Positions 12,464-53,202 of a stretch of DNA of 64,000 nt are shown in pieces. This DNA comes from Polytrichum commune (taxonomy: Eukaryota > Streptophyta > Polytrichopsida > Polytrichales > Polytrichaceae): the NCBI GenBank assembly GCA_950295325.1, contig OX485806.1:58769169-58833168 (forward strand). The letters are read 5' to 3'. The position numbers and the translations under genes were made by a program. Within the stretch, counting starts at the first letter, position 1; every line of letters begins with the position of its first letter. Below the pieces are notes generated by a model, which saw only the letters and a list, made by a program, of their open reading frames with translations, was not told the origin of the DNA and searched no databases.

Positions 12464-12700
12464 ATATAACACTATATTCGTTAAATTGAGACTTTCTCTA
12501 GTCTCAAATTAATATAAGGATCAAACAACATGAAGATGCCTGAAACTATATTGTCAACAATCTCAAATATATTAAATGTTCTAATATCCCACACCTATGA
12601 TGTGCGGACATAAGCACATATGGTAGAGCACTCAACACCAATTTCATCAACAAAAACACATTGGGTAGAGCACTCCAAACAAGTTTCACCCAAAAATATA
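12464..12700. repeat. Left terminal region of the large element
   Basis: CACTATATTCGTTAAATTGA then GACTTTCTCTAGTCTCAAAT and AATATAAGGATCAAACAACA match the left end of the miniature element at 42.9 kb. A small hairpin, GAGAC-N7-GTCTC, sits inside. A worn palindrome, TTGGGTAGAGCACTCCAAAC, is at about 12661-12681 and echoes the internal 22-bp sites. Confidence 0.7.
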
Positions 12701-13000
12701 TATATAATGATTTCTATTATTAGCATGCTCCATAGAATATAGACATTGCAACATACAAAGTGCATGTAATAAATGCACATTTTTTCAATGGACAATTTAG
12801 TCCCAAACTTAATAAAAAAATGAACTTCACATTTGTATTGAAATATAGTAAATGGATATTCATCCAACTCCAAAACAATATAGTATTCGTAAGTTCTACC
12901 CAAATTCTGCCCCAATTTTGAAGAGCACACATATGAGTAATATATGTTCGTAGAATTATTTTTTACACTATAATCATGCTAACACAATCCTACCAATTTC
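12701..13000. other. AT-rich 3' flank of the minus-strand gene
   Basis: No coding sequence. This is presumably the 3' untranslated region of the transposase-like gene ending at 13001. Confidence 0.4.
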
Positions 13001-14485
13001 TCATTCAACGTGGGTTGCTTCTTCTGCGATCCGAGCAAGGTTGTCTTTTGCAAAAGTTATGTACTTTTGAGGGATGGACACTGATCCACTATGATTTTTC
13101 CGTGGTTTCCATGCTATGAATATGGAATCTGTCTCTACCCAAGATGGACCGTGCTCAGAATCCACCTTCCACCGAAAGTTAGGGTTTGTATCCCAGCCTG
13201 TATAATGCCGAATCACATCTTCATTCATTGCCGTCGGTCGGTAGTACTCCACTTGTATTTGTCGAAAATGAGGGCTGGAAGTTACAAAATTGGGTTTGGA
13301 CAAAGCTCTTGCCACCCACACTGGCTTCACATATGTCTCGTCTCCAGGACGCAAAATGAGCATATATCCTTCATGACAATCCACTGCAATGCGGAAAGAT
13401 GGTGGCGGACGACTACTAGCAGGCCCCACGTAATGGTCGTCCACATCAAACTCCTCTCGAACCTCTCCATTTCCCAAAAGACTAGCCTCTGAAGCTTGTA
13501 CATCGACTCGTGTTTGTGGCCAAAATCCATGCCTCAAAGTATGAGGGCTATCTTGGTGGAGGTCTACCAAGGCGGCACGAACACGTGTCCAATAATGTAT
13601 CCAACTCCCATAACGATGCCAACATGATCCGCCAACATCCGCTATCTTCAAACTCTCCCAATATTGTATGAAGCCTGATATACCTTTCAAAATATCCTCC
13701 AAATTCTTCATGGCTATTGGCTTACAAGGACTAGGCTCCCCATCTGGTAACATGGTCTTCCCATCCGCATCCACGCGCCACACAAGAAGACCCTCCGGCG
13801 GGCTCCAGTCTTGTGTCGTGCACAACAACTTGTATTGCATGGCCGGGACACCATCGTCACGCATGTAGAACCGGAATTGTTGTGCCTTCGTATGGCCAAT
13901 CAATCGATGAGCTCCACTTCGAATATAAGGTTCTATAAATGCCTTGAAGTCTGGCACCTCCTCAATCATATGGGGGATGACGGGAACGTTCTCCAAATCC
14001 ATGTACGACTTCATCAATAATGGGATTGTAGGAAAATCCTCCTCCCGCAACTTCATGCTCCACCGCCCAAAAGATGCATCAATATCATCGTGCGTGTGGC
14101 CTACCAATAGGAAGGACACAAAAACCTCCTTGAAAATGCCTTTCGCAACCAACAACGACCAATATGCAAATACATATCTGCTTTTATTGTCCTTGGCACA
14201 ATTGTCCAATTGGACACGCAAAGTTGGAGGCAACTTCTTGGCAATCACGGGTTCATTGGGTGGCTCGGGCAACGAATGCAAGCATACATCTTTTCCATCC
14301 AACACCGCTTCATATAAAGGTGTTGAACCCGTGTTCTCAAATAACAATCCTGAAGAATAGGCTGGTGGTTTCTCTAAATCACGTAAAAGCCTTGCAAATG
14401 ATCCTATCGTGTGGTTTGAATCCGCTGGATACAAATCAAGAGCATAATGAGCAAACTTGACATCACCGTGTCCATGTGCAATCAT
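13001..14485 (-). CDS. Transposase-like protein, C-terminal part (DUF7869-like, QLDN...GHTHDDID)
   Basis: A 494-codon frame encodes the second half of a transposase-like protein. Near residues 91-105 is VQLDNCAKDNKSRYVFAYWS and at 129-143 VGHTHDDIDASFGRWS. This is the pattern of a large group of uncharacterised proteins (DUF7869-type) from plants, algae and invertebrates in which the first acidic residue lies upstream, here in the adjoining frame. An RNase H-like DDE/D fold is inferred from the D...D...H-x-x-D-D spacing, not proven. A C-terminal region of about 340 residues includes WSPPEGLLVW and a terminal basic tail. The frame opens with ATG at 14485, whose ATGA overlaps the stop of the upstream frame, so the full protein needs a frameshift, re-initiation or sequence correction. 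Confidence 0.68.
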   Translation of the reverse strand: MIAHGHGDVKFAHYALDLYPADSNHTIGSFARLLRDLEKPPAYSSGLLFENTGSTPLYEAVLDGKDVCLHSLPEPPNEPVIAKKLPPTLRVQLDNCAKDNKSRYVFAYWSLLVAKGIFKEVFVSFLLVGHTHDDIDASFGRWSMKLREEDFPTIPLLMKSYMDLENVPVIPHMIEEVPDFKAFIEPYIRSGAHRLIGHTKAQQFRFYMRDDGVPAMQYKLLCTTQDWSPPEGLLVWRVDADGKTMLPDGEPSPCKPIAMKNLEDILKGISGFIQYWESLKIADVGGSCWHRYGSWIHYWTRVRAALVDLHQDSPHTLRHGFWPQTRVDVQASEASLLGNGEVREEFDVDDHYVGPASSRPPPSFRIAVDCHEGYMLILRPGDETYVKPVWVARALSKPNFVTSSPHFRQIQVEYYRPTAMNEDVIRHYTGWDTNPNFRWKVDSEHGPSWVETDSIFIAWKPRKNHSGSVSIPQKYITFAKDNLARIAEEATHVE

Positions 14486-16070
14486 TCCTGCAATGCCAAC
14501 CCAACGTGATTAGCATCTATGTATGAATAAACCATTATGAAGGAATCCATGTTCTCCAGTACATCACGGAATAAAAAACCACAACATTTAGGGTATGTCA
14601 TGACATTGTTTCGAAGTTCACCTGTAACCGATACAGGCAACTTAAAAAACCCATCCGTGGCCTTGATTCGATTTGCAAAACATGGGGAGGCTGTTTTGGC
14701 ATGGTCCATTTTGTCATGGATGACCGTAAGAACCTCCAAGGGCCTGGAGATGGACAAAGCTCTATTTGTGTAGTAATCATTACGGTGTGCCTCTTGCATG
14801 TTTACGTGCTTGAAATAGTTCAATTGATGCGCTGCATATGACTCGGTACCCATCGTGTGTGCATCCCGGAGGCGCTTCAACTTCTCGCAATTAGAGCACC
14901 TGGCAAATTTGTCCCCTCGTCTTTTTGTAATGTATTCGCTAAAGTTTTGTTTCTTGATTGCACTTAATTTTGACAATGAAATTGGCTCCAACCCAATCTT
15001 CTCGCCAACTGCATTAACGTCCAACAATATGTCTTTCCATTTTGTGCCTGTGGGAAGAACTTTCTCCACAACCTTTTCACCGGTTGTGAGTGTGCGTGTT
15101 TTGTGCGGCATTGCATCAGCAAGGGGGACAATGATGGTTGCTAGAGTTGCCGTTGCTTGCCTTGTTGCTTCCCTAGGTTTCTTTAAACCCACGTTCCCAT
15201 GGTGACGGGACCGGCGGCCTTCCTTGGCATAAGCAGCTTGTCTATAGAAGTCCGCCTTCGACACACCGTAAATGGTGTACCATGCCTTACAACACACGTC
15301 TATGCTTTCAATGGTGATTACCTTGCGACCCGTCCCATTCACATGTATTGCCCTATGGACATCAAGTTTTTTTGTGGATCTTAGACGAAAATCTCCAAGC
15401 CACATTTCTTCACGGATGGCCTTCAATTTATCCCTTGGAAACAATTGGCAACAACAATGCACACAACAATCCTTTGTGGCAACTTCTCTTATGGACTCCT
15501 CCCCAAGCAGCCTTTGACGTTTACAATCAGTTGCAGATGGAGAAGGACGTGCCACAGTATTGTACTTTCTTTGACCCTTGCGTGGCCGCATGTTTGATTG
15601 CATTTCCTTTTCGAGTTGCATGTGTCGTTGCTCATGTTCACGCAAGCTAACTCCATCAGTCGTGACATTCCTCAATGGCCACCTGCGGAGGGTGAACCTA
15701 TGAGTGGGATCCACCTCAGAAGGAACGAGTGACTCCAATATGACAATCCCAACGTCCTCGGTGCCAAGCGGATTTTGATCAATGCAATCTTGTGGATGGG
15801 TGTTACGACAGATACCCTCCGCCACAACAACCCCATTGTCATTAAGAAGTAACACATCCAAATTCACCCATGAAGCTCTTGAAAGCACGGCACACTCTGG
15901 AATGGGACAGTCCGGTACGGAACGCGAAGGTATATCGAAATGCTCTTCATCTGAACTCTCATCCATAGTAGCCTCCCCGACAATGTCTAGCTCTTCCTCA
16001 GATGCAGATGGCCAAGTGGCCATGTCTTCTCCAGACGAATACCCTCTTCCAGTATACCCATCCATTTTGC
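14482..16070 (-). CDS. Transposase-like protein, N-terminal and central part (exon 2)
   Basis: The exon starts after the TGTGTAG acceptor at 16071 (minus strand). An acidic N-terminus (MDGYTGRGYSSGED...) is followed by a Cys cluster (KDCCVHCCCQLF), a basic region, a second Cys pair (FARCSNCEKLKRLRD) and HDKMDHAKTASPCF, which holds the likely first catalytic Asp. It ends at ANHVGLALQE then stop. The sequence after the stop continues the protein in the +1 frame as GMIAHGHGDVKF. A local TTGGCATTGCAGG looks like a 5-bp duplication that caused the shift. Exon 1 (17230-17380) joins this exon in phase. Confidence 0.65.
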
Positions 16071-17229
16071 CTACACACATGAACATGGAACCTTGTAAAG
16101 AATTGACAAAAGCTATAGGGTCCAATAGAAAAACACAGAAACCTTATCAATTTCGATATCCAGAAAATACTCAACAATTTGTTGTATGAATATTATATCG
16201 ATGGGTTCCAAAAAGATGGAGCGCACAACAGTTTATTCAGGATCCGTCTATGCACATCCCCATTGTGTGCATGAGGGTGGGTTTGGGTCGAGCAACCCAA
16301 ACCTCGTGATAGGATGGGCCTGCTAATCCAGGCCCAACCCGTGACAGGGGTGGGTTTGGGTCGCTCGACCCAAACCTCACAATGGAGGTGTGTTTGGGTC
16401 GAGCGACCCAAACCTCGTGACAGGATGGGCCTGGTAATCCAGACCCAGCCCTTGATAGGGGTGGGTTTGGGTTGCTCGACCCAAACCTCGTGACAGGATG
16501 GGCCTGGTAATCCAGACCCAGCCCTTGATAGGGGTGGGTTTGGGTCGCTCGCCCCAAACCTCACAATGGAGGTGTGTTTGGGTCGTGCGACCCAAACCTC
16601 ATGACAGGATGGGCCTGGCAATCCAGGCCCAGCGCGTGATAGCGGTGGGTTTGGGTCGCTCGACCCAAACCTCATAATGGAGGTGGGTTTGGGTCGAGCG
16701 ACCCAAACCTCGTGACAGGATGGGCCTGCTAATCCAGGCCCAACCCGTGACAGGGGTGGGTTTGGGTCGCTCGACCCAAACCTCACAATGGAGGTGTGTT
16801 TGGGTCGAGCGACCCAAACCTCGTTACAGGATGGGCCTGCTAATCCAGGCCCAACCCGTGAGAGGGGGTGGGTTTGGGTCGAGCGACCCAAACCTCGTGA
16901 CAGGATGGGCTTGCTAATCCAGGCCCAGCCCGTGATAGGGGTGGGTTTGGGTCGCTCGACCCAAACCTCACTATGGGGGTGGGTTTGGGTCGAGCGACCC
17001 AAACATTCCGCAAATTCCGCCTTAAATTGCGGTAATCTTCCATATTCAGCTACGTGGATACTCATTGGAAGAATTCAGGCCGTGCATGGCTGTTGTAATT
17101 AGCTACTCATCAACGGATGCATACACGAACCTTGCACTCCACCACTACTTGAGAGAGCTTGCAACCATTTCAGAATGGAGAGATGAGAAAAAATGAGCAA
17201 AGTTTGGGGGGTTTGGTACTTTATACTAC
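16071..17229 (-). other. Intron of the transposase-like gene holding a palindrome array
   Basis: The donor is at 17229 (minus-strand GTAGTA) and the acceptor TGTGTAG at 16071. The splice joins G|GC to give Gly and keeps frame. Most of the intron is the array at 16262-17010. The long minus-strand reading frame through it (16193-17065) encodes only repeated GRSTQT and PGPSCHEVWV units, a by-product of the array. Confidence 0.6.
16262..17010. repeat. Composite array of two interleaved palindromes (13 copies of the 22-bp site)
   Basis: Thirteen copies of the 22-bp palindrome occur at about 16270, 16344, 16391, 16465, 16538, 16574, 16648, 16686, 16759, 16797, 16872, 16945 and 16982. Most have exact arms; a few have one change. 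The central dinucleotide is mostly CT or AG, so neighbouring copies often face opposite ways. Between pairs lies a second inverted repeat, GGGCCTG-N6-CAGGCCC, often as GATGGGCCTGCTAATCCAGG. Pairs of 22-bp sites are 37-47 bp apart and the larger unit is about 110-118 bp. Confidence 0.92.
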
Positions 17230-17380
17230 CCGCCTCCGCCTTGGCCTTCCTCTTTGGATCCCTTTCCCGCTCGAACGTAAACCCTAAACCTAAGTTCAAA
17301 CCTTCTGACAGAATTTCCCGCTTCTTGTTGGTAATAGAGCATCCATATTTAGCTTGCCTCTTCGTGGCGCCAACCATCAA
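17230..17380 (-). CDS. Exon 1 of the transposase-like gene
   Basis: ATG at 17380 opens a basic 50-codon exon (MMVGATKRQAKYGCSITNKK and onward to KRKAKAEAG) that ends at a GTAGTA donor. The split Gly codon is completed by GC at the 5' end of exon 2, so the join is in frame. The short Lys/Arg-rich start could serve nuclear entry or DNA contact; that is inference. Confidence 0.55.
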
Positions 17381-17698
17381 ATGACCTTGGACAACTAACC
17401 TCCTAATTCCGCTATTAAATAACTACACAAAATATGATGTGTGGATTTGATTATATGTAGTGTTGTTACCACCAGTGTCCGAAAAGTTTTTGAAGTTATT
17501 GAGGTTAATTGCCTACCTCTTTAAAAGGGCATAGGCTATTTCCCTCATGGCATAGGTTGCATCCTACAATATCAAATTTTTGTAAGTTGAAAACCTTTTG
17601 AGTTTTTAAGTTACCTGCCAATTGCCTTTAAAACTAATTTTTAGTAGGTTAAAATCCTTCATATCTTTTAATGTTGTAGGCTTTAAATTCAAAATTTG

Positions 17699-18034
17699 AG
17701 TACCGTAACACCATAGCAGGTTCGTTCTTAAATAATTCCAAAAAAAAAAACGAAAAAAATCAGAAATTCCAGGCCATGAAGAACGAAATTATGGAAAATT
17801 ATATTATGAAAAGAACGAAAATCCAGAAAGTTGGGTGAAGCAGACTCTGTTGAAAAAATCAATTTAAGTTGTCATCCCGGTACATCTACTCTGTTCCAGG
17901 ACGAATTATTATTTTTCCTCAAAATAGAAGAACGAATTTCAAAAAAATCTATTTTTAGCAAACAAACCTTATTTTTTCAAAATAAATAAATATTCGTTCG
18001 CCAGGTGATGAACCTGCTATGGTGTTACGGTACT
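17699..18034. mobile_element. MITE-like element with 25-bp perfect inverted repeats
   Basis: AGTACCGTAACACCATAGCA then GGTTC at 17699-17723 is exactly mirrored at 18010-18034. The 336-bp unit is A-rich inside, with no coding frame. TA dinucleotides next to CCGTAACACC on both sides would fit a Tc1/mariner-type target, but the GTAC symmetry makes the true boundary uncertain. It splits a tRNA-like sequence that lies directly to its right. Confidence 0.8.
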
Positions 18035-18035
18035 A

Positions 18036-18125
18036 AGTGGTATCCTTGGCAGGAATTGAACCTGGCTAAGCCCTTCACCACGTTTGAAGGCCAAGGATTA
18101 ACCAACTCCTTTTTAAAGAGTTGAT
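18036..18125 (-). repeat. tRNA-derived SINE head (minus strand)
   Basis: On the minus strand, AGTTGGTTAATCCTTGGCC resembles a tRNA D-arm (A box) and, about 30 nt on, AGGTTCAATTCCTGCC fits the B box (GGTTCRANYCC). The distance fits a tRNA gene, but the arms do not form a full cloverleaf I can write out, so a SINE promoter or tRNA remnant is more likely. The adjoining MITE probably interrupted its body. Confidence 0.45.
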
Positions 18126-18594
18126 TATAAGTTATGAAAGGTTGCTAAAATTCAAATGAGTTTAAGGGTGAAAGTCCTCACCATCTTCTGATTCAACCTC
18201 TATGCGGTGATGGGGCTTGGGCTGTGGTATTTGTAAAGATCGACGGGGAGGGAGTCAGGGCTATTATTGATATCCGCCTATGTGCCACTCAAGAGCCCCG
18301 AGTATTAGCCTAAAGATATGTACTTAGGCCAACTAATTTCCCAATTTGAAGAAGGATGAATGGCTAAAATCCGCTCTTTTAAAAACTTTGTAGGCAAAAT
18401 TTCCTACATGTTTTTTACCACATAGGTTGATATCCTATGTTTTAAAATTGTCCATAGGCTCTTTGTCCTACACTTTCAAAATTTTATAGGCTAAGTCACA
18501 AATTTTGTAGGCTGCATTTACACTAGCCTTAGGCTCTTGGCGGACTATGGTTACCACCCTTACATGCTCAACATTAATTTTCAATCCTATGACA

Positions 18595-19025
18595 GTTAGT
18601 GTTAGAAGTAAATGTGTTGCTACCTTCTACTCTCACGTATATTTCTTCTTTTCACATCCTTACTAACACTAAATTCAAACATGTCAATGCCACATATTAC
18701 TATAGCTTATATTTAATGTTTATTACTTTCATATGGTTATTGATATATTGTGTATTCACTTGTATTTAGTGTATCAAACACTAAATATCATACTTATTGT
18801 AGTTGTGTTTTGTACCTATAGTTTTTATTGATTTGGCTTGCCAAAAAAAATGTAATCAACTTTATTTGTTTTAACAAATGTTTGATGAAAAATCTAAACA
18901 TATATAGTTGTATCTATTCAATGCAAGTTGAGCAGAACATGTCCTTAAATACATGTTGGTGTGTTCTAGTGTCACTACACTAAATAAGATATTTAGAGAT
19001 TTATACACTAAATATGAACGCATCT
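18595..19025. repeat. CACTAAATA dyads
   Basis: ACACTAAAT occurs near 18668, 18777, 18975 and 19002. At about 18758-18782 it forms a palindrome with TATTTAGTGT as the other arm. Function unknown; it may be a separate set of protein-binding sites. Confidence 0.5.
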
Positions 19026-19207
19026 ACGACGTAACATAACATACATAACAAACATAACATGAAATGTAACCAACGTTCATGTTCATGAATTAGACTATTG
19101 TGATATCTATATACATTTGTTTTTAGAACCACAAGCGACTTGGCCCCCTCATTTGACCTATGCGCCATTCATTTATGGCTTCGAGTGCAACAAGACACAT
19201 TTATATA

Positions 19208-19239
19208 CCCTAAACCCTAAACCCTACACCCTACACCCT
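19208..19239. repeat. Short interstitial telomere-like run
   Basis: Two perfect CCCTAAA units followed by CCCTACA variants. This is the plant-type telomere repeat. It is too short to mark a chromosome end; a similar run of three units lies at 37163-37183. Confidence 0.7.
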
Positions 19240-20002
19240 CGTAGTTGTTCAGGGTTGCTTCCCACGGGTAGGTCACTTAGTGCATTTTAAAAACGACGTG
19301 CGGCATAATATAGAGAGGATTGAAATCATTTGAAATAAAAATTATAAAGGAATTCCAAATAATGAAGGGGCCATTAAATGTAGACAATCCCATTATAAGT
19401 AAGTTAGATGGACATAAAATGTGGGCCATTATTTTTTTGTAAAATTAATATAGGGGCTGAAGATAAGGTTCCTAGAAGGTATGTTTAGTATAATGTTTGC
19501 TATGGTCTCCTATGTGTTTTCTTCATAACTTTGTTTGCAATGATATTATTGTTTGCACCCTTCTTTGTTTCCATGGTTTCCCTTAACAGGAAGTAGATTA
19601 GCTTTTATTACTTAAAAGGAATATAGAGTACAAAAAATTGCAGTGACTTGGACAATATAAGTAATGGAAGGGTGCAAACAAATGGGCCATTTTTGAAATT
19701 CAAGTAATTATAGGGAGGCTTTAATTCAACCCTTGAAGGTAAATAGCCCCAAAACAAAAAACCCTGAGCCGCACGTGGTGCACAAAAATGCCTTAGAGTG
19801 ACCTACCCGTGTGGCTTCCATATAGAACACCATCTACTGTAATTTGTGCCTCATTTCCTAATAAGATATGTTGTTTAATATATGTGGAGGGATCATCCAA
19901 CAACAAAGTGATTGCTTAAATGGCTTCATATAATGTTGAACTCCACATATTAGTATTTGATAGCTTCATATTTGTATACATGGTGCTTCTCTCATTTACT
20001 AT

Positions 20003-20175
20003 CACTATATTCAATATTTGTAGACTTTATCTTGTCTCAACTAAATATATGAACAACAACAACATTGTCTAATGTTTGGGTCGTCCTACCTAAACCATCT
20101 TCATATGAGTTCTTAATTGGGTTCTTCAGCAAAAACACCCGCTTCAATATATTTGTATCTCATAAATATGTAAAC
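20003..20175 (+). repeat. Second left-end-like sequence of the large-element family
   Basis: CACTATATTC begins at 20003. The following AGACTTTATCTTGTCTCAAC and CAACAACAACATTGTCTAATG, TTTGGGTCGTCCTACCTAAA, TATGAGTTCTTAATTGGGTTC and ACACCCGCTTCAA run parallel to the 42.9 kb miniature element for about 170 bp. It is either an embedded remnant or the true left end of a separate plus-strand element ending at 31251. Confidence 0.65.
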
Positions 20176-20640
20176 TTGTAAATAAGTATGTTAATGTTCC
20201 ATCATGCTATAAATCAAACAACATCTTTGTTGCTTTTCGCAAACAACAATGATATTAAGTTGTCAACACTTAATATTGCATAATTCCATATTATAATGAA
20301 TGACACTACATAAACTTGTATAATTAGATTTAGTTCATTGGTATGTGTTAACGGATCCATCGTAGGCTATAGCATTGTCCTTTACCAACAACCTTCATAG
20401 ATAATTACAATATATAACTCGAAACCATTCATTGTGTAAATGGTTACCATAGTTATATTATTCCATTATGTAATTGCCTACGAGGATTGCAATATAATTA
20501 TTAAATACTCCTCTTAGTCTAGTATCTATCATTCTCGATTCATGCATATGTGTAGATTACTAAAATTACAAAACCAATACAGTTTCATTATTTGATATTA
20601 GCAAATCCATCGGGGGACCATTAAATTAAAAACCTTAGGC
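20176..20640. other. AT-rich upstream DNA
   Basis: No coding sequence or clear motif is seen. It lies just upstream of the putative promoter of the fusion gene. Confidence 0.4.
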
Positions 20641-20648
20641 TATAAAGG
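20641..20648 (+). promoter_or_regulatory. Candidate TATA box of the fusion gene
   Basis: TATAAAGG stands at the edge of an AT-rich tract. Downstream the composition switches to a GC- and CT-rich leader (20.7-21.07 kb), as expected for a plant promoter and 5' leader. No transcript start can be proved from sequence. Confidence 0.4.
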
Positions 20649-20699
20649 TTTTTTAGTATCCTCAAGGATGGTATGGGATAGGTGGCTAAAGGATACCCA

Positions 20700-21120
20700 C
20701 CTGCGAGGCCTATCGACCGTCGATGGGCCTGGGGCTCTCCAATGGCTCAGATTGTGTATTCGTTTGGGCCATGGAGCGCCCCGTGACACGTGGCGGCCAT
20801 GAGCCGAACGGACACGAAAGGCGCCGGCCCGAATGGGTCCCGCCCTTTAGTGACCTTCCCCCTTTCACTCTCCCCTCCGCACTTTCTCCTTCTCTCTCCT
20901 CCGCTCCAAGCTCCTCCTCCTTTGTACGTTCCTCATACTTTCTGGAGGCGCCGCCGCTCTTGAAAGCGCCGCCTCCTCCCTTGCATTCTCTCTCTCCTTG
21001 TCGAACTCGCATTCCCTCTCTCCTTCCCTCTTCATCATTATCTCATTCTCTCTTTCACTCCTCCTCTTCTTTTGATCTATTTTGTTGTTCATTGAGTGCG
21101 CATTGACCGAGTTCTGAGTG
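20700..21120 (+). other. Pyrimidine-rich leader of the fusion gene
   Basis: It begins with a GC-rich stretch, then CTCTCC/CTTCTC-rich DNA from about 20860 to 21060. Open frames on both strands (20710-21106) are low-complexity Ser/Pro/Leu or Arg/Glu and look accidental. It is best read as a 5' untranslated exon because the first coding ATG at 22445 directly follows a splice acceptor. Confidence 0.45.
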
Positions 21121-21362
21121 TAGTATGAGTTTAGGGTTTGTTTTTGTATTAAAGTCTATACATTTTAGCCATTTCAGAACGTCTTTGTTGTTTTGGAGTG
21201 TGAGTGTTGTTTCAAAGTGGTTGTGTCAGTTCCTCCTGGTCTTAGAAACATTCATGTGTGAGTGTAGAGTGATTTCGGAATTAGAATGATTATTCGAAAA
21301 TCAGGATGCATGTGTGGCCTTCAGATAGCTTCTTTGTTCATGTTTGTAAACACTTGTTACAT

Positions 21363-21485
21363 TCAGAGTGAATGTTTGTGAGGGATTGTTTAATTCTAAG
21401 TGAATGTTTGTGAGGGATTGTTTAATTCTGAGTGAATGTTTGTGAAAGCTTCTTCAATTCAGAGTGAATGTTTGTGAGGCGTTCT
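21363..21485 (+). repeat. Four tandem copies of an about 36-41 bp unit
   Basis: The core GAGTGAATGTTTGTGAGG (or AAGTGAATG... and GTGAAAG variants) is repeated four times with GATTGTTTAATTC-like spacers in the presumed leader intron. No coding role. Confidence 0.8.
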
Positions 21486-21699
21486 TAGTTTTCTGATATC
21501 CAATCCTTTCTAGAATCAGCTTCCAAGACTAGCTTGTTAGAACTGCTTCCAACAGCAGCTTGTTGTGTAGTTTGCAAAGCAAGGTGATTTCTTCAACTTC
21601 TTTATGTGTGTCAATTTCTTTAGAGTTTCGCAGCATCTACAATGCATAAGCATTGTATATGCTGCGTAAACACATTATAAAGGTCTCTGGAATCAAAAG

Positions 21700-22420
21700 T
21701 GTTTCGAGAGACGACCCAAACTTCAGTTTGAAACCCTAAAACACTAAACTCTGCAGCTGGTTTGGGTAGAGCGACCCAAACTCTCCAGCTGGTTTGGATC
21801 GTTCGACCCAAACTAGCAGATGCTCTGGGTCGTGGGCGCCAATCCATCTGCAGAGTTTGGGTCGCTCGACCCAAACCATAAGCATTGTTTGGGTCTAGGG
21901 TTTAGCCAAACTCCGCATCAAATGTTCATTTATAATTAATTTAATCATCATCTTGGGTGAATATCTAACCCTATCGACCCAATCCATCTGCAGAGTTTGG
22001 GTCGTTCGACCCAAACAGCGCATGAAATGGTAATTCATAATTTAGGTAATCATCATCTTGGGTATGATCTAAGGCCATAGCCGATCATTCCATACCGCTA
22101 CAAAGTTTGGGTCGAACGACCCAAACTTTGCGTAAATTTTTACTGCTTACGAACAATACTTACACTTATAAACAACAACTCAAACACCCAAGCAATAATG
22201 AAATGACCCACAACTAGAATAGTAGCTCGTGATGATTGTTGTATCCATGAACTTAAAGATTGGTTTTCGTAGCCAAATAATATATTATTCATTAGCCATT
22301 GTAGGCACAGGTTTGGGTCGTTCGACCCAAACCTGTGAAAAGTAACCCCATATATAAATGTTACTAAACCCAGACATAAGCCTATATGATTTGAAAGAGT
22401 TTGGGTCGCCCGACCGAAAC
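21700..22420. repeat. Leader-intron set of 22-bp palindromes (seven sites)
   Basis: Sites lie at 21760-21781, 21792-21813, 21855-21876, 21995-22016, 22105-22126, 22311-22332 and 22399-22420; a lone half site is near 21710. Centres are AG, TT, CT, TT, AA, TT and CC. Four have perfect arms; the rest differ by one or two bases. The last ends 24 bp before the first coding ATG. Confidence 0.9.
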
Positions 22421-22444
22421 TAACATATGTATTTCTACTTGCAG

Positions 22445-23773
22445 ATGCCCCCCAAGAAAAGACCTGGAGAACGATGGTTCAAGCCGGCACCAGACGCGAT
22501 CTGGCAGGAGCACGAAACTCCTAAAAACCAATCCTACGTAGCAAAAGAAGACCTTGTAATTGCATGGTCCTTTCTTGTAGTAAAGGCAGCTCAATTCAAA
22601 ATCCTCCTTGTTTTGAAGGTTGGCACGGAGGAGCAACACACATGGGATGCTTTGACGGGATGGGAGGTGGCATCAGTTCATGCTCTAGGAGAGCACGTTG
22701 ACGTCATCCTGGAAAACTCTTCTCTGGAAAATGTGCACATGTTCATGCATGAGCAAGCCGAGCCATTCGATCCGGTATACGTGAAGGAATCCTGCGCTGA
22801 GCCAGACATTGTTAAACCGGATACAATCTTCATAGATGCGATCATTTCAAACACGAAGGTTGCAACCAGGTTCACTAAACTTAAGCAGGCAATCAACGCA
22901 ATAAACAAGACCCAGCAAAGCAAGTCAAAATCTCAACAAGCTGTGAGGCGCAAGGCGACTGCTGAAGAGGGCGCAGGGTCGTCAAGACCTCAAACAGTGA
23001 GGAAGCCCCGACCGGTTCCAACTGACTCGAGGAGAACAACACCTACGGCAACTCCTGCTGATAGTGAAACACCGACGCCATCACAAAGCCGGCAGACGAC
23101 ACCATCTAAGAGGCCGAGAGAGTCAGTATCTGCCATGACAGATGAGCCTGTTTCACCGGAGCTACGTATGCCCAAGCCCGGGGAAGGAGTGGAGCCATCG
23201 GAGATCCAGAAAATACTCAACAATTTCGACACCAAGTGTTTACATTTTTTTTTCATGGGCAGAGAATTCAAGTTTGATGTCAACATCGCACAATGCCACC
23301 TAGCGCCACCAGAGAAGTGCGTTCGGGCAAAGGAAGATGCGTATGTTGATTGGTTAATCGCCCAGATGGTGAGCGACCAGTTTAAACATGATAGGCAGAC
23401 TATTGTTGTCATGCCTCAGGGACACAAAAGAATGCCTACACCGGATATGTGGCCTTCTATAGAGAAAGGCAATTTTTGGCTGATTGACGGTCAGCACAGT
23501 GTTGAAGCTTCAAAGAAACTTCAACTGATGACGGAGTGGAATGATCCTAATGGTCTAAAGGAAAAATTGAAGGTATGGAAGGCATTGGTCGTGTGGTCGG
23601 ACGACGAAACCCGGCTGAGCGATATCTCCCGCTATTTCAACATGAATAACAAGAAGCGGGCATATCAAGCTTCTTGGATTAGGAACATCATGGCATCGCG
23701 GGATGTGTGGGAGTTCTACGGCCGGCCTCCCAAGGAAAGGGAGAATGCAAAAGACAAGAATCCAAAGTGGGAG
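22445..23773 (+). CDS. Fusion gene exon: basic N-terminus, linker and ParB/DGQHR-like domain
   Basis: ATG at 22445 follows a CTTGCAG acceptor, so an untranslated exon lies upstream. The exon has 443 codons. Residues 1-130 form an unrecognised domain (AWSFLVVKAAQFKILLVLK), 150-245 a Lys/Arg/Thr/Pro-rich linker, and 265-425 a ParB/DGQHR-like domain with FWLIDGQHSVEASKKL at 344-359. ParB-type domains carry I-DGQHR-x-x-A; here Ser replaces Arg. Later come WKALVVWSDD and ISRYFNMNNKKRAYQASWI, matching the helical second half of such domains. In phages and bacteria this domain is often fused to DNA adenine/cytosine methyltransferases. The donor GAG|GTGAGC is at 23774, phase 0. Confidence 0.7.
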
Positions 23774-24086
23774 GTGAGCATTGTTTCTCAAACAGAGTTT
23801 GGGTCGCTCGACCCAAACTTTGGGTTTCTTCATACAGTTTGGGTCGCTCGACCCAAACTTTGCGTTTCTTCATACAGTTTGGGTCGCTCGACCCAAACTT
23901 TGCGTTTCTTCATACAGTTTGGGTCGCTCGACCCAAACCTTGTGTTTCTTCATACAGTTTGGGTCGCTCGACCCAAACCTTGTGTTTTAGTTTGTGTTTG
24001 TCTACGCAGTTTGTTGTTCATCATTTTTCTTCTTTGTTTGGAAACAACATATTGAGAATTAACACGCATTCTATGCTCTTGTGCAG
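23774..24086 (+). repeat. Intron with five exact 40-bp palindrome repeats
   Basis: The 22-bp palindrome (centre CT) starts at 23797, 23837, 23877, 23917 and 23957, a period of exactly 40 bp, separated by near-identical TTTGCGTTTCTTCATA spacers. The intron runs from GTGAGC to TTGTGCAG and both neighbours are in phase 0. The repeat reads through as an open frame, giving a false C-terminal extension of the exon. Confidence 0.93.
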
Positions 24087-25418
24087 CTTTTCAAATACCA
24101 AATGATAAACAAGTTCTCCTCAATTGACAATTCAAGTCACAAGCAAAAGAAGTACAATGAGCTAAGAGGAGAGATCTACTTGATTACATCATCCGACATG
24201 GTTTGGCAGAAGTGGAAGACAGTGTTTGAGAAACACGAGACAGGGGATCTCATGGATCCTGACACATGCAACCTCTTCAACTCGTCCTCTCGATTCAAGG
24301 CGATGAAGCCTCTCATGAGAGAATTCTTTAGAAGTCTGCAGGGTCTTTCGGAGGCGGAAATGGGGAAGGCGGCAACGCACATCTTGCACAACAACCCAAC
24401 CCCTAAGAGATTTTGGGTGTACCCCAAAATAGTCTTCACCAAGCCGAAATCCTTTGTTCCTTCATGCTACACAATGAAGGAATGGGCGGAGAATAGGAAG
24501 AAAAAAACAACGATCGTCCAGGAGCTGCAGAAGCTAATCCCGGAAAAGAACATTTTTGTCGATGACGAGGTGAACGAGGTGAACTGGAGAGTGTTCAAGG
24601 CTGAATACAACTTCACCAGTGCATCCATGGCAGCTCTGATCAGGGAGGCAGGAGAAGACTTCCTAAAGTCAAAACTGGTGAAGGGTGGGAAGAACCTGGC
24701 TCTTCCAGAACACTCGACGCGTGCCTTCTCAAACTTTATAAAGGAGAAGAAGATTGTAAGTTTTGAGGGGGATGCGCATTTCAACCTTGTCGCTTTTGAC
24801 CCTATTAAAATCCAGGGATGGCCCGGCCTTGATTCCAGGAAAGAAATACGAGTAAGAGCAGCGGACCGGTTCCCCTTTGGTATAATAGACTTCCGGAGCA
24901 TTCCTGGGAGTACGTTTGAGGGCACAATGGGTACACCCTTCTACGAGCCCTTCATGTCGAAGTTCGTGGAGTATGCAAGCCCTAAGCTTAGGGAGGTCGA
25001 TATGTGGCTGTGGATAGTAGAGGATAGGAGAGCAGAGCAGGTGTATGAAATTGTGAGGAAATTGCAGCCTGAGTATGCGGTGTCTAAGTCTCACTACATT
25101 GCTGCACCGGCGGAGGGGGTGTACACGACACTAAAGGACAAGAAAACCAAAGTCATGAATTTGTTGTGCTTGTACTTTGTGTTCAAAGCAACCTTGCTGA
25201 AGGTGGAGAACCACCCCATAACCCGGATGCAGAAACTATTCCAAGTTCCAGAAGGCCTGGGCGCAAGTAAGTCCCTCTACGACGAGGCAAAATATGCCAT
25301 ATACCATTCGGACGAGTTGCGGATGGAATTCTATCTCCGAATAATGAGGGCCTTGACGAGAAGAGGGGACTGTATATTCAACGTCTTCGGCGGCACCAAG
25401 CCCGTCTTCGCTGGCATG
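24087..25418 (+). CDS. Fusion gene exon: methyltransferase-like domain up to motif I
   Basis: A 444-codon exon (LFKYQMINKFSSIDN onward), phase 0 at both ends. A Lys-rich helical first half leads to a region with FNLVAFDP and, further on, FPFGIIDFRSIPG (possible but unclear DPPY-like motif IV positions). REVDMWLWIVEDRRAEQVYE and KVENHPITRMQKLF follow, then DELRMEFYLRIMRALTRRGD and CIFNVFGGTKPVFAGM. The last stretch aligns with motif I of class-beta N4/N6 DNA methyltransferases (V-D-x-F-x-G-x-G-T), where the cofactor loop lies near the C-terminus. Lys stands where the second Gly is usual, so activity is uncertain. Domain identity is by pattern, not by search. Confidence 0.62.
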
Positions 25419-25640
25419 GTAAGCTCCTTACCATAATAAAGGTCATAGTTTGGGTCGAGCGACCCAAACTAACACCGATGCTAGTTTGGGTCGAGCGACC
25501 CAAACTAACACCGATGCTAGTTTGGGTCGCTCGACCCAAACTATGACCTTTGCAATTGATATTAGGTCTTGTATGTACTTCCCCTTTTCGGTGGAATCAC
25601 ATGTTATGCCATATAATAACATCTGGTGGGATTTCTGCAG
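25419..25640 (+). repeat. Intron with three 36-bp palindrome repeats
   Basis: Palindromes start at 25448, 25484 and 25520 (period exactly 36 bp; centres AG, AG, CT) with an AACACCGATGCTA spacer. Donor ATG|GTAAGC, acceptor TTTCTGCAG at 25640, phase 0 on both sides. The intron falls exactly within the methyltransferase motif I region. Confidence 0.93.
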
Positions 25641-28468
25641 ATGCTGGGGCTGAACGTGTACAGCTATGTAGACCTTAATGACATCCAATTCTACAAGGCC
25701 CAAAAATCATTGGCGAAGAAGATGGATATACTAGACTGGATCCCTGGGAGCTACGCCGAGGAGACTGTTGAAGGGGGTGAGAGCCCGCTGGATAAGGCGA
25801 GGCGTGTCAACCCTAAAGAATTGGCCATAAAGGTTCCAGTTGCTGTACCAGAGCCTCTGGTCCAAGTGCATCCAGGCACATCCTCTCGGCGACCGCGTAA
25901 CGAGGAGGGGGAGGAGGATGAGGAGGTGGAAGAGGAGGAAGAAGAGGCTAAAGTGGAGGGCGAGGTCGAAGAAGGGGGAACAGGCTTCACTCAGGAATCT
26001 GAAGCCCCTCAACGAAAGAAGGCAATGCGGGTAGCAACTCCACAAAGTAAGTTGGTGCCCGTCCTGACGGTTGATGATGCCCGCGACATGTACTCCAGGG
26101 ATGCGACTGCCGCGTTCAGGGAAAGGAGGAAACTAAAAGGCAAGAAACTCTATGGCGACTATGCCATCGAGGAGACAATTGCCATTACACTACTAGAAAA
26201 TCATGACCAAATCAACAAAAAATCAACAGATCTTTGTCGATCCGGGCACTGCAATGACCGATTTCACTGATTTTTGAATTTTTGTAAAAATCAACTGTTT
26301 ATTGCCTACATTTTTGTTGATTAGAATAGTACAATGACCAAATCAACAAAATTTTAGTAAATGTGAAATCTTTTTGGAATATTCTAGGATCTATTGGAAT
26401 ATTGTAAAATCTTTTTAATTTTTTGCAATTTATGGACTTGTAAGTGTATGGGTATGGAAATAATTACGAATTCAAAGGTGTGTAAATATTATAAATATTA
26501 TATTAGTTGATTGTTAATATTATATATTATATATTATATATATATATATATGTATATGAATTAATATGTATATGTATAATATGTATATAATATATGTAAC
26601 ATATAATATATATATGTATATGTATATATGTATATAATATGTATGTATATAATATATATGTACATAATATATATGTATATAATATATATGTATATAATAT
26701 ATATGTATATAATATGTATGTATATAATATATATATAATATATGTAACATATATGTATATAATATATGTAACATGTATGTATATAATATATGTAACATAT
26801 ATGTATATAATATATGTAACATATATGTATACAATATATGTAACATGTATGTATATAATATATATATGTATATAATATATAATATATAAATATGTATACA
26901 TTTACAGTAAATATATACACTATATATTTATTGTAATTATATACAGTATATATTTACTGTAATTATATACTATATATACACTATATATATTTACTGTAAT
27001 TATATACTGTATATATACTGTATATATTTACTGTAAATATATACATCAAGTAGGTAGTAAAGAGAAAATAGTGGCCTTATTCTAGAAAGGTTTAAAACAC
27101 TCCATTTATATCATGTGGGATGTGATGACCTAGTGGTTAAGGCACATGTGTGGATGTCACTAGGTGCAAGGTTCGATTCTCGTGGCCGACACCTTCGGCT
27201 TGGGCCTTGCCACCTAGGTGAGTGGTAGGTAGTCTATACTTTGTAGGTGAGGTATAGGTTGAGGGTTACTTGGGAGGTGTTAGGAAATGCAGATTTTTTA
27301 TTATTATTATTTTTATTATTTAATGTAATATATATATATATATTTAAAAATAAAAAAATAAAAAATAAAAAATAAGTTTTTTTAAAAAAATCTTTTTGTG
27401 ACCATATCAACAGAAAAAAATCAACAAAATTGTGTTACATCATGTCCAGGTCAACGCGTCCTAAGTAACAACCGCGACCAACGCCTTTCTGTTGATCCGG
27501 ACGTAGAATTTTCTACTAGTGTTAGCAGCGAAGACGAGGACGACATGGAGCTCGCGAAACGGCTCAGGTCGGACCCTCCCTCTCCAGGTGCCTTCGCAGG
27601 GATGGTGAAGGTGAAGCCGGAAGTCCTCACCGTGCAAGAAGCCAACGAGAAGATGTTAAGGGACGAAGAACAACGCGTCCGCTTGCAAAAGGCCGCTGCT
27701 GAAGAACCCTCAGTGCGGAACGAAGTGGCAGAGCTAAGGGCTCTCTTATTGGAGCAAGAGCGACTGCGGGCATTGGCGCAACCTCCAACTAGTGCGGACT
27801 TGATCACGCAAGTGATTCGAGGCATGTGGGCGCAGGGTTTGGTGGTGGCTCCCCCGGGCTCATTTCCACACTTGCCCCCCGGCTTCCCTCCCCAGAACAT
27901 TCCTCCGCAGCCCGTGCCGCAATCCTCCTTCAGCTTTCAGCACATGGTTCCCCCCCACGTCCGTCCGTATCCGCCGGTTCAACAAGCGGATGACCCCAAT
28001 ATATGGCGCCTTCCCGGGTCTTCTAGACCTGTGACCCCCCCACCACTTCGGCCGCCCCTGGTGATCCCCCCGCCCCATCAGCAGGACGACCCCCACATGT
28101 TTGGGTCGTCCGACCCAAACCCGCCCCCCTTTACAGTGCAACAAGGCCAATCTCATGATGCACGAGAGTTTGGGTCGGCCGACCCAAACCCCGTTACCGC
28201 TCAGTCTTCAATGGACCAGCATGGGTCTGAAAGAGACACACCCATGCCTGATGTTGAAGGTCCTCGAGGGCCTGGTGATACCTCTACTCCTATCCCAATC
28301 GATGAACCTATGCATGATGCACATGCGGAGGTTGGGTTAGGAGAAGGTCCTGACACTGAACGCTTGCAGGAGAAGGGTGCTGACATCGTCGGAGAAGGCG
28401 GTGGCAAGAGAGAACGACAAGCGGAGGCGGTGGAGGCTTCCATGGCGTCCAGGCATGACCAGGGAGAG
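25641..28468 (+). CDS. Fusion gene exon 4: end of methyltransferase fold and acidic/proline-rich linker, split by a CACTA insertion
   Basis: The exon starts MLGLNVYSYVDLNDIQFYKAQ, which follows motif I like the G-x-x-x-x-G-x-D/E-x-x-x-x-x-x-x-A segment of DNA methyltransferases. A very acidic stretch (EEGEEDEEVEEEEEEAKVEG) comes next. The coding sequence is broken at 26187/26188 by a 1334-bp CACTA-ended insertion and resumes at 27525 with SSEDEDDMELAKRL. With one TTA target copy kept, the two halves join in the same frame and give 497 codons. The rest is a helical Glu/Arg-rich part, then a Pro-rich part holding two 22-bp palindromes in frame as FGSSDPN and FGSADPN. Donor GAG|GTAATA, phase 0. 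Confidence 0.66.
26520..27045. repeat. AT-rich microsatellite (TATATG/TATAAT type)
   Basis: Over 500 bp of imperfect alternating TA, TATATGTA and TAACATATAATATG units, continuing as ATATATTTACTGTAAT units at 26.9-27.05 kb. The long Tyr/Ile frames on both strands here are meaningless by-products. Confidence 0.95.
27118..27300 (+). mobile_element. tRNA-derived SINE
   Basis: TGACCTAGTGGTTAAGGC (A box) and GGTTCGATTCTCGTGG (B box) are 33 nt apart, as in a tRNA gene, followed by a non-tRNA body (GGCTTGGGCCTTGCCACC...) and an AT-rich tail. It lies within the CACTA-type insertion, so it landed there later or was carried along. Confidence 0.7.
28099..28189 (+). repeat. Two 22-bp palindromes inside the coding sequence
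   Basis: Perfect-arm copies at 28099-28120 (centre TC) and 28168-28189 (centre GC), 69 bp apart and therefore in the same reading frame, both translated as TTT GGG TCG NCC GAC CCA AAC. The surrounding protein is a Pro-rich linker that can tolerate them. Confidence 0.93.
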
Positions 28469-28959
28469 GTAATACACTGAGACCTCCTCAGTTTGGGTCG
28501 CTCGACCCAAACTCCTGGTCTATTGTCTTGTTGCCGTGGTCGTGTCCCCCCTAGCTAGGAGGAACTGCCCCCACCCCGTCCATCCGCTCTCGCATCCCTT
28601 CAGCCCCCCCCCCCCCGACGATCATTAACGTCGCCCGTCCCACGATTTTACTCGAACTTGGAGGCGTGCACACAATTTTGTAGATGTTGAATTAGGATAG
28701 TTTGAAAGGATCGTTCAACGCGGCTTCACACCCCTAGGCATTTTGTACATAGAGCATTGCAAACAATAAAATTATTATTTTGTGCCCTTATGTTTGTTTT
28801 CGTGTTCAAATGTATATTTTTTCCTCTTGCCCCCTCTTGCATTTGTATGGCCGCCTATGCATAGTGGTTCTTGTATTTTTCACAGAAAATATTGTATTCA
28901 CTTTAAGTGGACATAGCATGACATAGTCTTCCCCCGCCTTATGTCGCTCGTCTCCACAG
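28469..28959 (+). other. Intron of the fusion gene
   Basis: From GAG|GTAATA to TCTCCACAG. It carries one perfect 22-bp palindrome at 28491-28512 (centre CT), a C-rich run near 28607-28617 and no coding frame. Phase 0 on both sides. Confidence 0.65.
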
Positions 28960-29772
28960 GGATCGGAGCATAGCGTCGCGGCTCCCCGCCGGGCCTCTCC
29001 AAGAAGCGAGGAAGGTAGCGCGATGGTCCCCCCCATTTTACCCGTTCCACCTTTGCCGCCTAAGACCCGGTTCCTGGTGTTAGACCTCAACGGGGTCCTC
29101 GTCCAATGCGTTCATTGCCCGAGGACCCCCACGGTGGCCTTTTGCAAACCCGAGGACGCGAATTACGACGGGCCGCCCACGTTCATAAAGAGCAAGCTAG
29201 TTCACCTCTGCCCGTGGCTTCGGACCTTCCTCCAGATCGCCCAACAACGATGGTGGGTGGTCGTGTGGAACTCCATGAAGGCCGAGAACACCAATGCAGT
29301 CGTGGAGTTCATCTTCAAGGGCATCGAGCCCCCCTGCATGGTCCTAGCACAGGAAGCCTGTAGAATATTGTACACACCGGACGGCAAAGTCGTCAAAAAA
29401 CCAAACAACCCCGCTTCCCCCCAATACCTCAAGGTCTTGAAGCCCATTTTTTGGGACCAGCGTCCGTCATTGATAGGTGTCCCCTACGACGTCCGTCCCA
29501 CCCGGGAGAACACGCTCATGGTGGACGACAGCGCCGCAAAGAACATGTTGAACCCGACGGCCAACTTAATAGTTTGCCCTACGTGGACGGTCGAGAAGGT
29601 CCGGGACCGATTTTTGTTAGACCTTAGTAAATACCTCCAGGCGCTCAGGGGAAGCGGACTACCTGTAAACAATTTTGTTAGGAATAATCCGATAGGCGAG
29701 AGATACTTGGATCCACGAGACCATTTGTACAGAGAGTTGTTCTCTCACGCGAAATTTAACAAGCTCATTTGA
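28960..29772 (+). CDS. Fusion gene exon 5: FCP1/NIF-like HAD phosphatase domain
   Basis: The exon begins GSEHSVAAPRRASPRSEEGS in the frame set by exon 4 and encodes PKTRFLVLDLNGVLVQC, WWVVVWNSMKAENTNAVVEF and TLMVDDSAAKNMLNPTANLI, then a stop at 29770. These are the HAD/FCP1 motifs: motif I D-x-N/D-G (the DLNG form is common in plant relatives), the W-[ST]-x2-x3-N region, and motif III DDS with a downstream Lys/Asn. The second motif I Asp, the general acid in active phosphatases, is Asn here, so it may bind phospho-protein or be inactive. Being in frame with the methyltransferase part, it looks like one protein of about 1654 residues. Less likely, a separate gene starts at ATG 29023. Confidence 0.7.
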   Translation, partial: GSEHSVAAPRRASPRSEEGSAMVPPILPVPPLPPKTRFLVLDLNGVLVQCVHCPRTPTVAFCKPEDANYDGPPTFIKSKLVHLCPWLRTFLQIAQQRWWVVVWNSMKAENTNAVVEFIFKGIEPPCMVLAQEACRILYTPDGKVVKKPNNPASPQYLKVLKPIFWDQRPSLIGVPYDVRPTRENTLMVDDSAAKNMLNPTANLIVCPTWTVEKVRDRFLLDLSKYLQALRGSGLPVNNFVRNNPIGERYLDPRDHLYRELFSHAKFNKLI

Positions 29773-29779
29773 GGCAGCA

Positions 29780-29805
29780 CGTGTGTGTGTGTGTGTGTGT
29801 GTGTA
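29780..29805 (+). repeat. GT microsatellite
   Basis: About eleven GT units right after the exon 5 stop. The array could supply splice donors. Confidence 0.9.
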
Positions 29806-29913
29806 TGCGCCCGCCCACTTTGTGTAATATATGCTTCATATGTATCTTGATTTTCACGCGCTCTAGCAAACCCTCTTCCTTTGGGTTTTGTTTCGTTTCC
29901 TTTTTTGCGCCAG

Positions 29914-30705
29914 CGTTTGGAGCCCTCGATTGACATCGTCAGCGAGTCAGAGTTGGGGAGCTTCTTCTACGAGACCGTTTACGACGCTGCGTCAACCATT
30001 GACTACTCCAAGGAGCCTATTGACGCCGGCGTCGTCGATAGCCCCCCACCCAAGCAAATCTTACGGCGATCTCCGTCCCCGTCGCCGCTCAAGGGCATAA
30101 ATCGCAAATGCGTCCGGACATCCCCCTCTCGGCCCGGCGGAAGTATTACACCTCAACGGCGGCTGCGGATGGACGCACGGCCAACGAAGAGTGGAACCCT
30201 TCCTATTCCTTTGCGGGACGCCTTGCCCCTCCTTGCCAACTCCGATGGGAACGCCCCCGGTGACAAGGTGAACCCCCCCCCCCTCTCTAAAACATGGTTA
30301 ACCGCGCATTACAATCATTTTGCACTTAAAAAATGATCGTGTGACACGTTTGGGTCTTCCTCCCTAAACTAACACATGTGGTCTTGCAATGACGCGTTGC
30401 AGGTTGCTCCCACCCGTAAACCTATGCGGTCTAGTGCGTCCATCGAGTTCGAGCGTATGTACGCCATGACCAGAAATGCGAGACAATCCACTTCATCGTA
30501 TTCGAATTCTTCGACGTATATTTCGGGCGGCCGACGGACTCCAAAATGTCTTATGGATGGCGGTCACCCCAAGAATGGCTATAGTCGCGGGGCGGAGATT
30601 TTCAGGAATGTTGAAGCAATGCGAGCAAAAGAAGCCGCAGCAAAAGAAAAAGAGGCAAAAGATAAAAAAGCAAAAGAAAAAGAGACAATCTCCGAGGCTA
30701 GATAG
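29914..30705 (+). CDS. Downstream exons (29914-30267 and 30403-30705), possible alternative C-terminus
   Basis: The first exon follows a TTTTTTGCGCCAG acceptor and reads RLEPSIDIVSESELGSFFYE and a Pro/Ser/Arg-rich stretch; its donor is AAG|GTGAAC. The second follows GCGTTGCAG and reads VAPTRKPMRSSASIEFERMY, ending in a charged helix (EAMRAKEAAAKEKEAKDKK...) and a stop at 30703. Together they give 218 codons, all phase 0. They could attach to exon 5 through a GTAAAC donor at 29665, also phase 0, skipping the stop at 29770. No domain is recognised. The intron between them has a worn palindrome near 30349. Confidence 0.5.
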
Positions 30706-31227
30706 GCCATAGTAGGCGTAGGGTTTTGGGCCATAGGCAACATCATTTTGGGTCGCACTATCCAATGTATGTGTGGTGTTAGCATGCTATGCATTTTACA
30801 TGCCATACTTTGTATGTTTTTTTTGCAATAATATAAGTGTCACATGATTTCCCCTTCAATATGGTCCAAGGTTTGGATTGCCCTAACTAAACCATCACAA
30901 ATATGAGTTTGGAATATTTTGTATGTTATATTATATTGGTTCACATAGTTCCCCTTCAATATGGTCTAAGGGTTTGGAGTGCCCTACCTAAAACATATTC
31001 ATACAAGATCTCATATTTTGTGTGCGATAATATGAATGTTTTAAGATTTCCCCTTCAATTTGGCCTAAGGTTTGGATTGCGCATCCTAAACAATCCCAAA
31101 TATGAGTTATTAATGGGGTTCTTGTTCTAAATACCCGACACAAAGTGTTCGCATCTTACAACTTTCTCCAATATGTGTTCCATTTATCCTTGTTCTTATT
31201 TATGTGAATGTCTCAAAATGCCCAAAA
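30706..31227. repeat. Right subterminal zone with three tandem about 100-bp units
   Basis: TTCCCCTTCAATATGGTC-like starts at about 30848, 30949 and 31047 are each followed by a worn palindrome (GGTTTGGATTGCCCTAACTAAACC, its GGAGTGCCCTACC and GGATTGCGCATCC variants) and TATGAG or TCATAC words. The last part, GCATCTTACAACTTTCTCCAATATG, is shared with the 43.1 kb miniature element. Confidence 0.8.
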
Positions 31228-31257
31228 AGTCTCAATTTAACGAATATAGTGTTATAT
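31228..31257. repeat. Right terminal inverted repeat of the large element
   Basis: AGTCTCAATTTAACGAATAT then AGTGTTATAT is the exact reverse complement of 12464-12493. The element end is placed at G31251 (CACTATA on the minus strand). Confidence 0.75.
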
Positions 31258-53130: not shown

Positions 53131-53202
53131 TGGTGCACCTTAATCCTGCTGGAAGCTTTGCACGGCCGAAGCGGAGGATCACATCTCTCAGTGACTAGAG
53201 CA

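Follow-up and report, generated by a model that had tools for sequence, protein, structure and literature searches.

The window analysed here comprises 64,000 nucleotides of Polytrichum commune (GenBank assembly GCA_950295325.1, contig OX485806.1, positions 58,769,169 to 58,833,168 of the forward strand) and contains a large land-plant DNA transposon with terminal inverted repeats and two genes (Table 1). One is a putative transposase gene of the DUF7869 family and the other, on the opposite strand, is an accessory gene, whose predicted product would join a ParB-like and a methyltransferase-like part to a NIF/FCP1-type phosphatase-like domain. Comparison with four near-identical copies gave sharp limits to the element, which is flanked by a duplicated ATAT at 12464-12467 and 31254-31257. 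Among the four copies in which both ends are visible, the window's included, 4-bp target duplications are seen in three (ATAT in the window, CTTG and GTAA), the duplication being absent at the C6:40.38 Mb copy. Duplications of this length are produced by Sola elements, and the element is like them in this respect. A preliminary description of this DNA had found the accessory gene and placed it in a plant transposon, a setting that the ends, the target duplications and the many copies bear out; the limits of the element and its second gene had been overlooked.

Table 1. Features of the Polytrichum commune element (window positions)
Feature	Position	Strand	Remarks
Whole DNA transposon	12468..31253		18,786 bp including nested insertions; from similarity limits among near-identical copies and end sequences
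Left terminal inverted repeat	12468..12495	+	28 bp, AACACTATATTCGTTAAATTGAGACTTT
Putative transposase gene (DUF7869, PF25273)	13001..16143	-	two overlapping frames, 13001-14509 and 14482-16143
Palindrome array directly upstream of transposase frame	16282..17003		10 exact and 3 near-matches
Palindrome array upstream of accessory gene	21761..22419		4 exact and 3 near-matches
Accessory gene, exon 1	22445..23773	+	443 codons; ParB/DGQHR-like part with LIDGQHSVEASKK
Intron 1 palindrome array	23798..23977		5 copies, 40-bp spacing
Accessory gene, exon 2	24087..25418	+	444 codons; methyltransferase-like; motif IV position FNLVAFDPIK, motif X/I region RIMRALTRRGDCIFNVFGGTKPVFAGM
Intron 2 palindromes	25449..25540		3 copies
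Accessory gene, exon 3, first part	25641..26187	+	motif II-like LNVYSYVDLND, then acidic low-complexity sequence
Nested CACTA-type insertion	26188..27521		1,334 bp; breaks exon 3; TTA duplicated, second copy 27522-27524
Accessory gene, exon 3, second part	27525..28468	+	two palindromes within the coding sequence (28100, 28169)
Intron 3 palindrome	28492..28511		1 copy, conserved in diverged intron
Accessory gene, last exon	28960..29772	+	270 codons and stop; NIF/FCP1-type phosphatase-like, motif DLNGVLV
Two conserved open exon-like stretches	29914-30268 and 30403-30705	+	candidate alternative 3' end or separate gene
Right terminal inverted repeat	31226..31253	-	28 bp

The distribution of the element was followed through genome searches in which the best 95 of 1,230 candidates were scored for exon 2 of the accessory gene (the window's own included), the best 150 of 1,491 for DUF7869 and the best 142 of 1,266 for the phosphatase exon. 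The scored exon-2 matches are spread across the genome and fall into 34 at 97-100% identity and 61 at 79-81%. The group at ~ 80% is referred to as subfamily 2, and its C2 and C7 copies (sequences L029-L034) were compared with the window. A DUF7869 match lies head-to-head within 25 kb at 39 of the 95 exon-2 places, compared to 0.46 expected from a random draw that used an assumed length for C5. One of the other 56 places shows a different arrangement and 55 have no DUF7869 among the scored matches.

All exons of the accessory gene are stop-free in translation and its three junctions are GT-AG in phase 0, with 497 codons in exon 3 over both parts and 1,654 codons in total. The open segments, phase-0 joins and absence of stops given in the preliminary description are therefore as it had them; its five coding segments are correct when the split exon 3 is counted twice, and the motifs it quoted (LIDGQHSVEA, NVFGGTKPVFAGM, GLNVYSYVDLN, LVLDLNGVLV and VDDSAAK) are present as given. 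The insertion that splits exon 3 has the ends CACTA[C/G]TAGAAAAT and an AT-rich interior. It is missing from all four near-identical copies, being the window's alone among the five compared, and the empty site reads GCCATTA/GCAGC at the C4:43.05 Mb copy. Two misaligned exon-3 rows were dropped from the alignment.

In favour of the phosphatase-like exon being a separate gene adjoining a ParB-like gene are an AATAAA-like stretch in the preceding intron (read by eye) and an in-frame ATG at 29023 in the window's last exon. Against it, the donor and acceptor of the junction between exon 3 and the phosphatase exon are kept in both subfamilies, the 63 bases from the acceptor to this ATG align gap-free between the window and subfamily 2, and the C2 copy holds no in-frame ATG anywhere before the phosphatase motif, which leaves the separate-gene explanation very improbable. 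Given the conserved splice sites and the missing start codon in subfamily 2, the fusion is, on comparative grounds, real, and the single fused gene proposed at the outset stands. Moreover, the phosphatase exon is found downstream on the same strand at 69 of the 95 exon-2 places. Between the two subfamilies the nonsynonymous divergence (dN) is 0.127 in exon 1, 0.114 in exon 2, 0.179 and 0.187 in the two parts of exon 3 and 0.026 in the last exon; the synonymous divergence (dS) is 2.6 and 0.99 in the exon 3 parts and 0.25 in the last exon, while exons 1 and 2 are saturated and not computable. Judged by these rates, the protein is under purifying selection between the subfamilies. A chance origin of the gene is excluded, since exon 2 recurs, the phosphatase exon accompanies it at most of the scored places and dN is low in exons 1 and 2.

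The preliminary description was right that there are palindromes; in the window they are limited to the element, and they are under constraint. The 20-bp palindrome TTTGGGTCGNNCGACCCAAA occurs 25 times in exact form in the window, always inside the element and nowhere else, and all 33 window sites with up to three mismatches lie inside it as well. Two of the exact copies are in the coding sequence of exon 3. In the whole genome there are 9,731 exact sites compared to none for a backwards control pattern. Among the first 100 matches listed, several clusters repeat the layout of the element with spacings of 69 and ~ 300-323 bp, and further subfamilies of the element are likely because some palindrome clusters, for example C1:1180628-1190811, fall outside the 95 scored exon-2 places. 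In a comparison of two sequences, third codon positions within the coding palindromes are kept in 12 of 12 cases, compared to 119 of 200 in the remainder of that part of the exon (p = 0.004); likewise, for two sequences, the core bases of the intron 3 palindrome are kept in 18 of 18 cases against 291 of 459 (p = 0.0006). Furthermore, the intron 1 array keeps the palindrome even though its repeat unit is 40 bp in the window and 57 bp in the C2 copy. From this pattern of constraint, the palindromes look like putative binding sites. As in bacterial ParB-parS systems, they are conserved and element-specific, the specificity being seen directly in the window and, genome-wide, by way of the listed clusters.

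The transposase gene consists of two overlapping frames. Frame 13001-14509 matches the DUF7869 model of Pfam at 1.2e-42, and the gene is a divergent, putative DDE transposase with likely candidate DDE residues, read by eye, in HDKMD, QLDNC and GHTHDDID. Frame 14482-16143 is without a Pfam match, and a 45-base intron joining the two frames was rejected, as it leaves no open frame. Between subfamilies, frame 13001-14509 shows a dN of 0.009 and a dS of 0.05, far below the divergence of the accessory gene. Because the C2 copy is broken in frame 14482-16143 (7 stops), this frame was excluded from the reading of dN and dS, and its computed values of 0.29 and 0.48 mean little. At the protein level the subfamilies are 98% identical in the DUF7869-bearing frame, 93-95% in the last exon and 65-82% in exons 1-3, with 79-90% over most of the length of frame 14482-16143. 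Since frame 13001-14509 and the last exon are far less diverged than exons 1-3, the elements look like mosaics, as though modules had been exchanged.

A more distant element, L035, has a DUF7869 gene 39% identical over 149 residues; the strand opposite this gene carries a relative of exon 1 that contains DGQH (WEPVDGQHVEHA...). Between this relative and the C7 copy's exon 1, 28 of 100 residues are identical (2e-5 by BLASTP when 3 sequences are compared), and exon 1 of the window matches it with a phmmer value of 0.0005 and an hhalign P of 0.002; it gives independent support to an old DGQH domain. In the distant family to which it belongs (L035-L038), three of the four best-scoring copies have an in-frame TGA.

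With regard to the domains of the accessory protein, the last exon matches PF03031 at 6.4e-13 (49.1 bits, cut-off 21.8) and contains the VDDS motif; the assignment of a phosphatase-like domain of NIF/FCP1 type is certain, as the preliminary description had it. The nucleophile motif of PF03031 phosphatases is DxDx(T/V). Both the window and the C2 copy read DLNGV at this place, the second Asp being gone, and a PDB sequence search with the last exon gave no match at 0.01. For exon 1, the best alignment of the ParB_N profile falls on the DGQH motif (FWLIDGQHSVEASKKL, P 0.12), the proteins compared being those of PF02195. Methyltransferase profiles place RIMRALTRRGDCIFNVFGGTKPV on motif X/I with P values of 0.013, 0.074 and 0.033 in separate alignments. 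In motif I, the last G of FGGSG is missing (FGGTK/FGGSK). The catalytic motif IV, (D/N/S)PP(Y/F/W), was not found at the corresponding position, where the alignment is weak and which reads DPIK in the window and EPLR in subfamily 2; an earlier placement of this motif by eye, DFRSIPG, was replaced by the profile-aligned DPIK.

Related arrangements are known from algae. The Ectocarpus element Sola1-1_Ec32 (21.5 kb; PMC12477816) is, like the Polytrichum element, a giant DNA transposon with a ParB-like and methyltransferase gene (ParB plus N4C/N6A-methyltransferase, 1,104 residues) on the strand opposite the transposase. Unlike it, Sola1-1_Ec32 comes from a brown alga and is described without mention of a phosphatase domain, of palindromes or of the state of its motif IV in the passages available; the likeness is one of description. 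Similar proteins with the same domain pair in transposons are reported from green and red algae (Iyer et al. 2011; Petroll et al., Bostrychia; both as cited in PMC12477816), the giant red algal elements being described there as EnSpm. Uniqueness of the arrangement is hence not supported. A different and active enzyme is the bdelloid N4CMT, a captured bacterial amino-methyltransferase that writes N4-methylcytosine (4mC) in a eukaryote (PMC8885841). Among phage and bacterial fusions of ParB with N6_N4_Mtase (L170, 425 residues; L180-L259), the order of ParB followed by a permuted-type methyltransferase is the same as the one suggested for the accessory gene, and the motif I region aligns weakly; in contrast to the accessory gene, L170 has an intact DPPY and FGGSG, no introns and no phosphatase-like exon in its 425-residue frame. 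The last exon shares the domain match and VDDS with the PF03031 family but differs from it in DLNGV and in being fused to transposon domains. In the part of the literature covered, neither the phosphatase fusion nor the palindromes were found to have been described before.

Taken together, we give about an even chance to the reading that the accessory protein binds the palindromes of its element while its NIF/FCP1-type domain acts on host proteins, keeping the element expressed or controlling its transposition. The 1,654-residue product would probably bind the element's own TTTGGGTCGNNCGACCCAAA sites as bacterial ParB binds parS, and it is the natural candidate because its ParB-like part is encoded by the same element. 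Since palindromes precede both genes and sit in introns, such binding might control the element's own transcription. The C-terminal domain could then reach host proteins, either the RNA polymerase II tail or chromatin, and by acting on them may keep the element expressed or transposition under control. Among the functional ideas of the preliminary description, the one that the palindromes are read by the element gains most. As a tentative extension, less probable than the reading just given, the element might have its own ParB-parS-like system. In it, a ParB-derived protein, joined to a methyltransferase fold no longer in use and to a NIF/FCP1-type domain acquired by capture, would cover the thousands of palindromes that the element has spread (9,731 in this genome) and so set the transcription or silencing of every copy simultaneously.

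Several results weigh against a ParB-methyltransferase reading of exons 1-3. Exons 1 and 2 gave no match to Pfam (the PF02195, PF14072 and PF01555 models included), PHROGs or PDB sequences, and the L035 relative no Pfam match to ParB. The ParB_N score was equalled by 8 of 120 shuffles. The motif X/I match has a P of 0.17 with 5 templates only and 0.48 in global mode, and among 120 column shuffles, 1 scored as high with the bacterial methyltransferase set and 3 with a mixed set that consists mostly of phage ParB-methyltransferases (77 ParB-methyltransferases and 13 other proteins). FNLVAFDPIK aligns to motif IV collinearly with the real motif order, although alone it is not significant (P 0.2-0.4). 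AlphaFold failed to give a usable model for either stretch: the predicted local distance difference test score (pLDDT) was 31.8 for exon 2 with intron 2 and the beginning of exon 3, modelled from 5 rows with Q in place of stops, and 32.4 for exon 1, modelled from 4 rows. Neither model was used for a fold search. One subfamily 2 copy, L030, reads DGHH in place of DGQH. Of the ParB/DGQHR and methyltransferase domains proposed earlier, the quoted motifs are hit by the profiles, weakly, whereas domain matches are lacking and scores barely exceed those of shuffles. Exons 1-3 could accordingly be neither ParB-like nor methyltransferase-like, the motifs having come to resemble these domains by chance in a transposon protein peculiar to the lineage. 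We consider this unlikely: the best methyltransferase match falls on the motif stated beforehand with every set in local mode, the second, weak match keeps the order of real motifs, the distant relative retains DGQH, and the published brown-algal analogue, as far as it is described, has the same domain pair in the same place. At the other extreme, the protein may be an active N4C/N6A DNA methyltransferase guided by its ParB-like part that marks the element's own copies, in line with the motif X/I alignment, with the proposal for the Ectocarpus and other algal proteins (PMC12477816) and with the bdelloid precedent (PMC8885841). Here the motif IV position, DPIK/EPLR instead of DPPY/SPPY, and the missing last G of motif I stand against it, and we regard this explanation as quite improbable. 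DNA methylation by the accessory protein is unlikely on account of this motif IV position, so the active DNA-modification enzyme of the preliminary description is not borne out; given the missing DPPY and the missing second Asp of DxDx(T/V), the methyltransferase-like and phosphatase-like parts more likely bind rather than catalyse.

The identity of the binder is a further point at which the palindrome-binding reading can be challenged. In the C2 copy exons 1-3 have diverged to 69-81% identity and the palindrome has not changed, which fits binding by the accessory protein but does not prove it. The transposase or a host factor could bind the palindromes instead. As to the NIF/FCP1-type domain, it looks, we infer, captured from a eukaryotic host gene. 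Transposase-related proteins of other plant elements, such as TnpA of En/Spm, bind repeated internal motifs, and one of the palindrome arrays directly precedes the transposase frame. The sites might thus be bound by the DUF7869 transposase or by a partner, serving transposition or the element's repression of itself, with another task left to the accessory protein. On the other hand, no exact site is found within 2.7 kb of either element end, where a single site with 3 mismatches occurs (at 30747), and the accessory gene, together with the sequence immediately ahead of it, has 15 of the 25 exact sites, for which reasons we hold this alternative to be unlikely.

In the passages available of PMC12477816, the role proposed for the algal transposon ParB-methyltransferases is untested and no target is named. 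The Polytrichum element extends this kind of transposon gene to a land plant and supplies a testable target, a 20-bp palindrome under constraint beside the accessory gene. Its sequence also speaks against DNA methylation as the function conserved in its lineage, and the added phosphatase-like domain points toward host transcription or chromatin. With nearly ten thousand palindrome sites in the genome, the accessory protein could be a genome-wide regulator.

Scans of viral contigs with exon 2 and with a DUF7869 alignment as queries found no relatives, and no mention of DUF7869 was found in the part of the literature covered. Elsewhere in the assembly, AUX/IAA, a mark of land plants, has matches at one place. 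PF02195 (ParB_N) has 4 matches, confined to three small contigs (C10, C12 and C23) that are probably bacterial contamination; C10 and C12 also have a PF01555 match, in both cases in a frame as long as that of the ParB_N match (722 and 501 codons), so that one frame probably holds both. Another high-copy chromosomal family with PF01555 is present (C1:9662150, C4:44111740, C5:16865322), with many frames near 119 codons. It was considered as a missing link and rejected: of its 83 places, 3 on small contigs were excluded, and since only 5 of the 80 chromosomal places have a scored DUF7869 match at a distance of 30 kb or less, the family was treated as separate.

In the window, the two open stretches that follow the accessory stop codon look spliced, and stretch 29914-30268 has no Met at its start. 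Beyond the element, a Gypsy-like retroelement was recognised by eye at 49848-53217 from its frames (aspartic protease, reverse transcriptase and integrase-like), and a further repeat family is present in inverted copies that have diverged from one another, at 41734-42320, 53320-53891 and 57847-58399.

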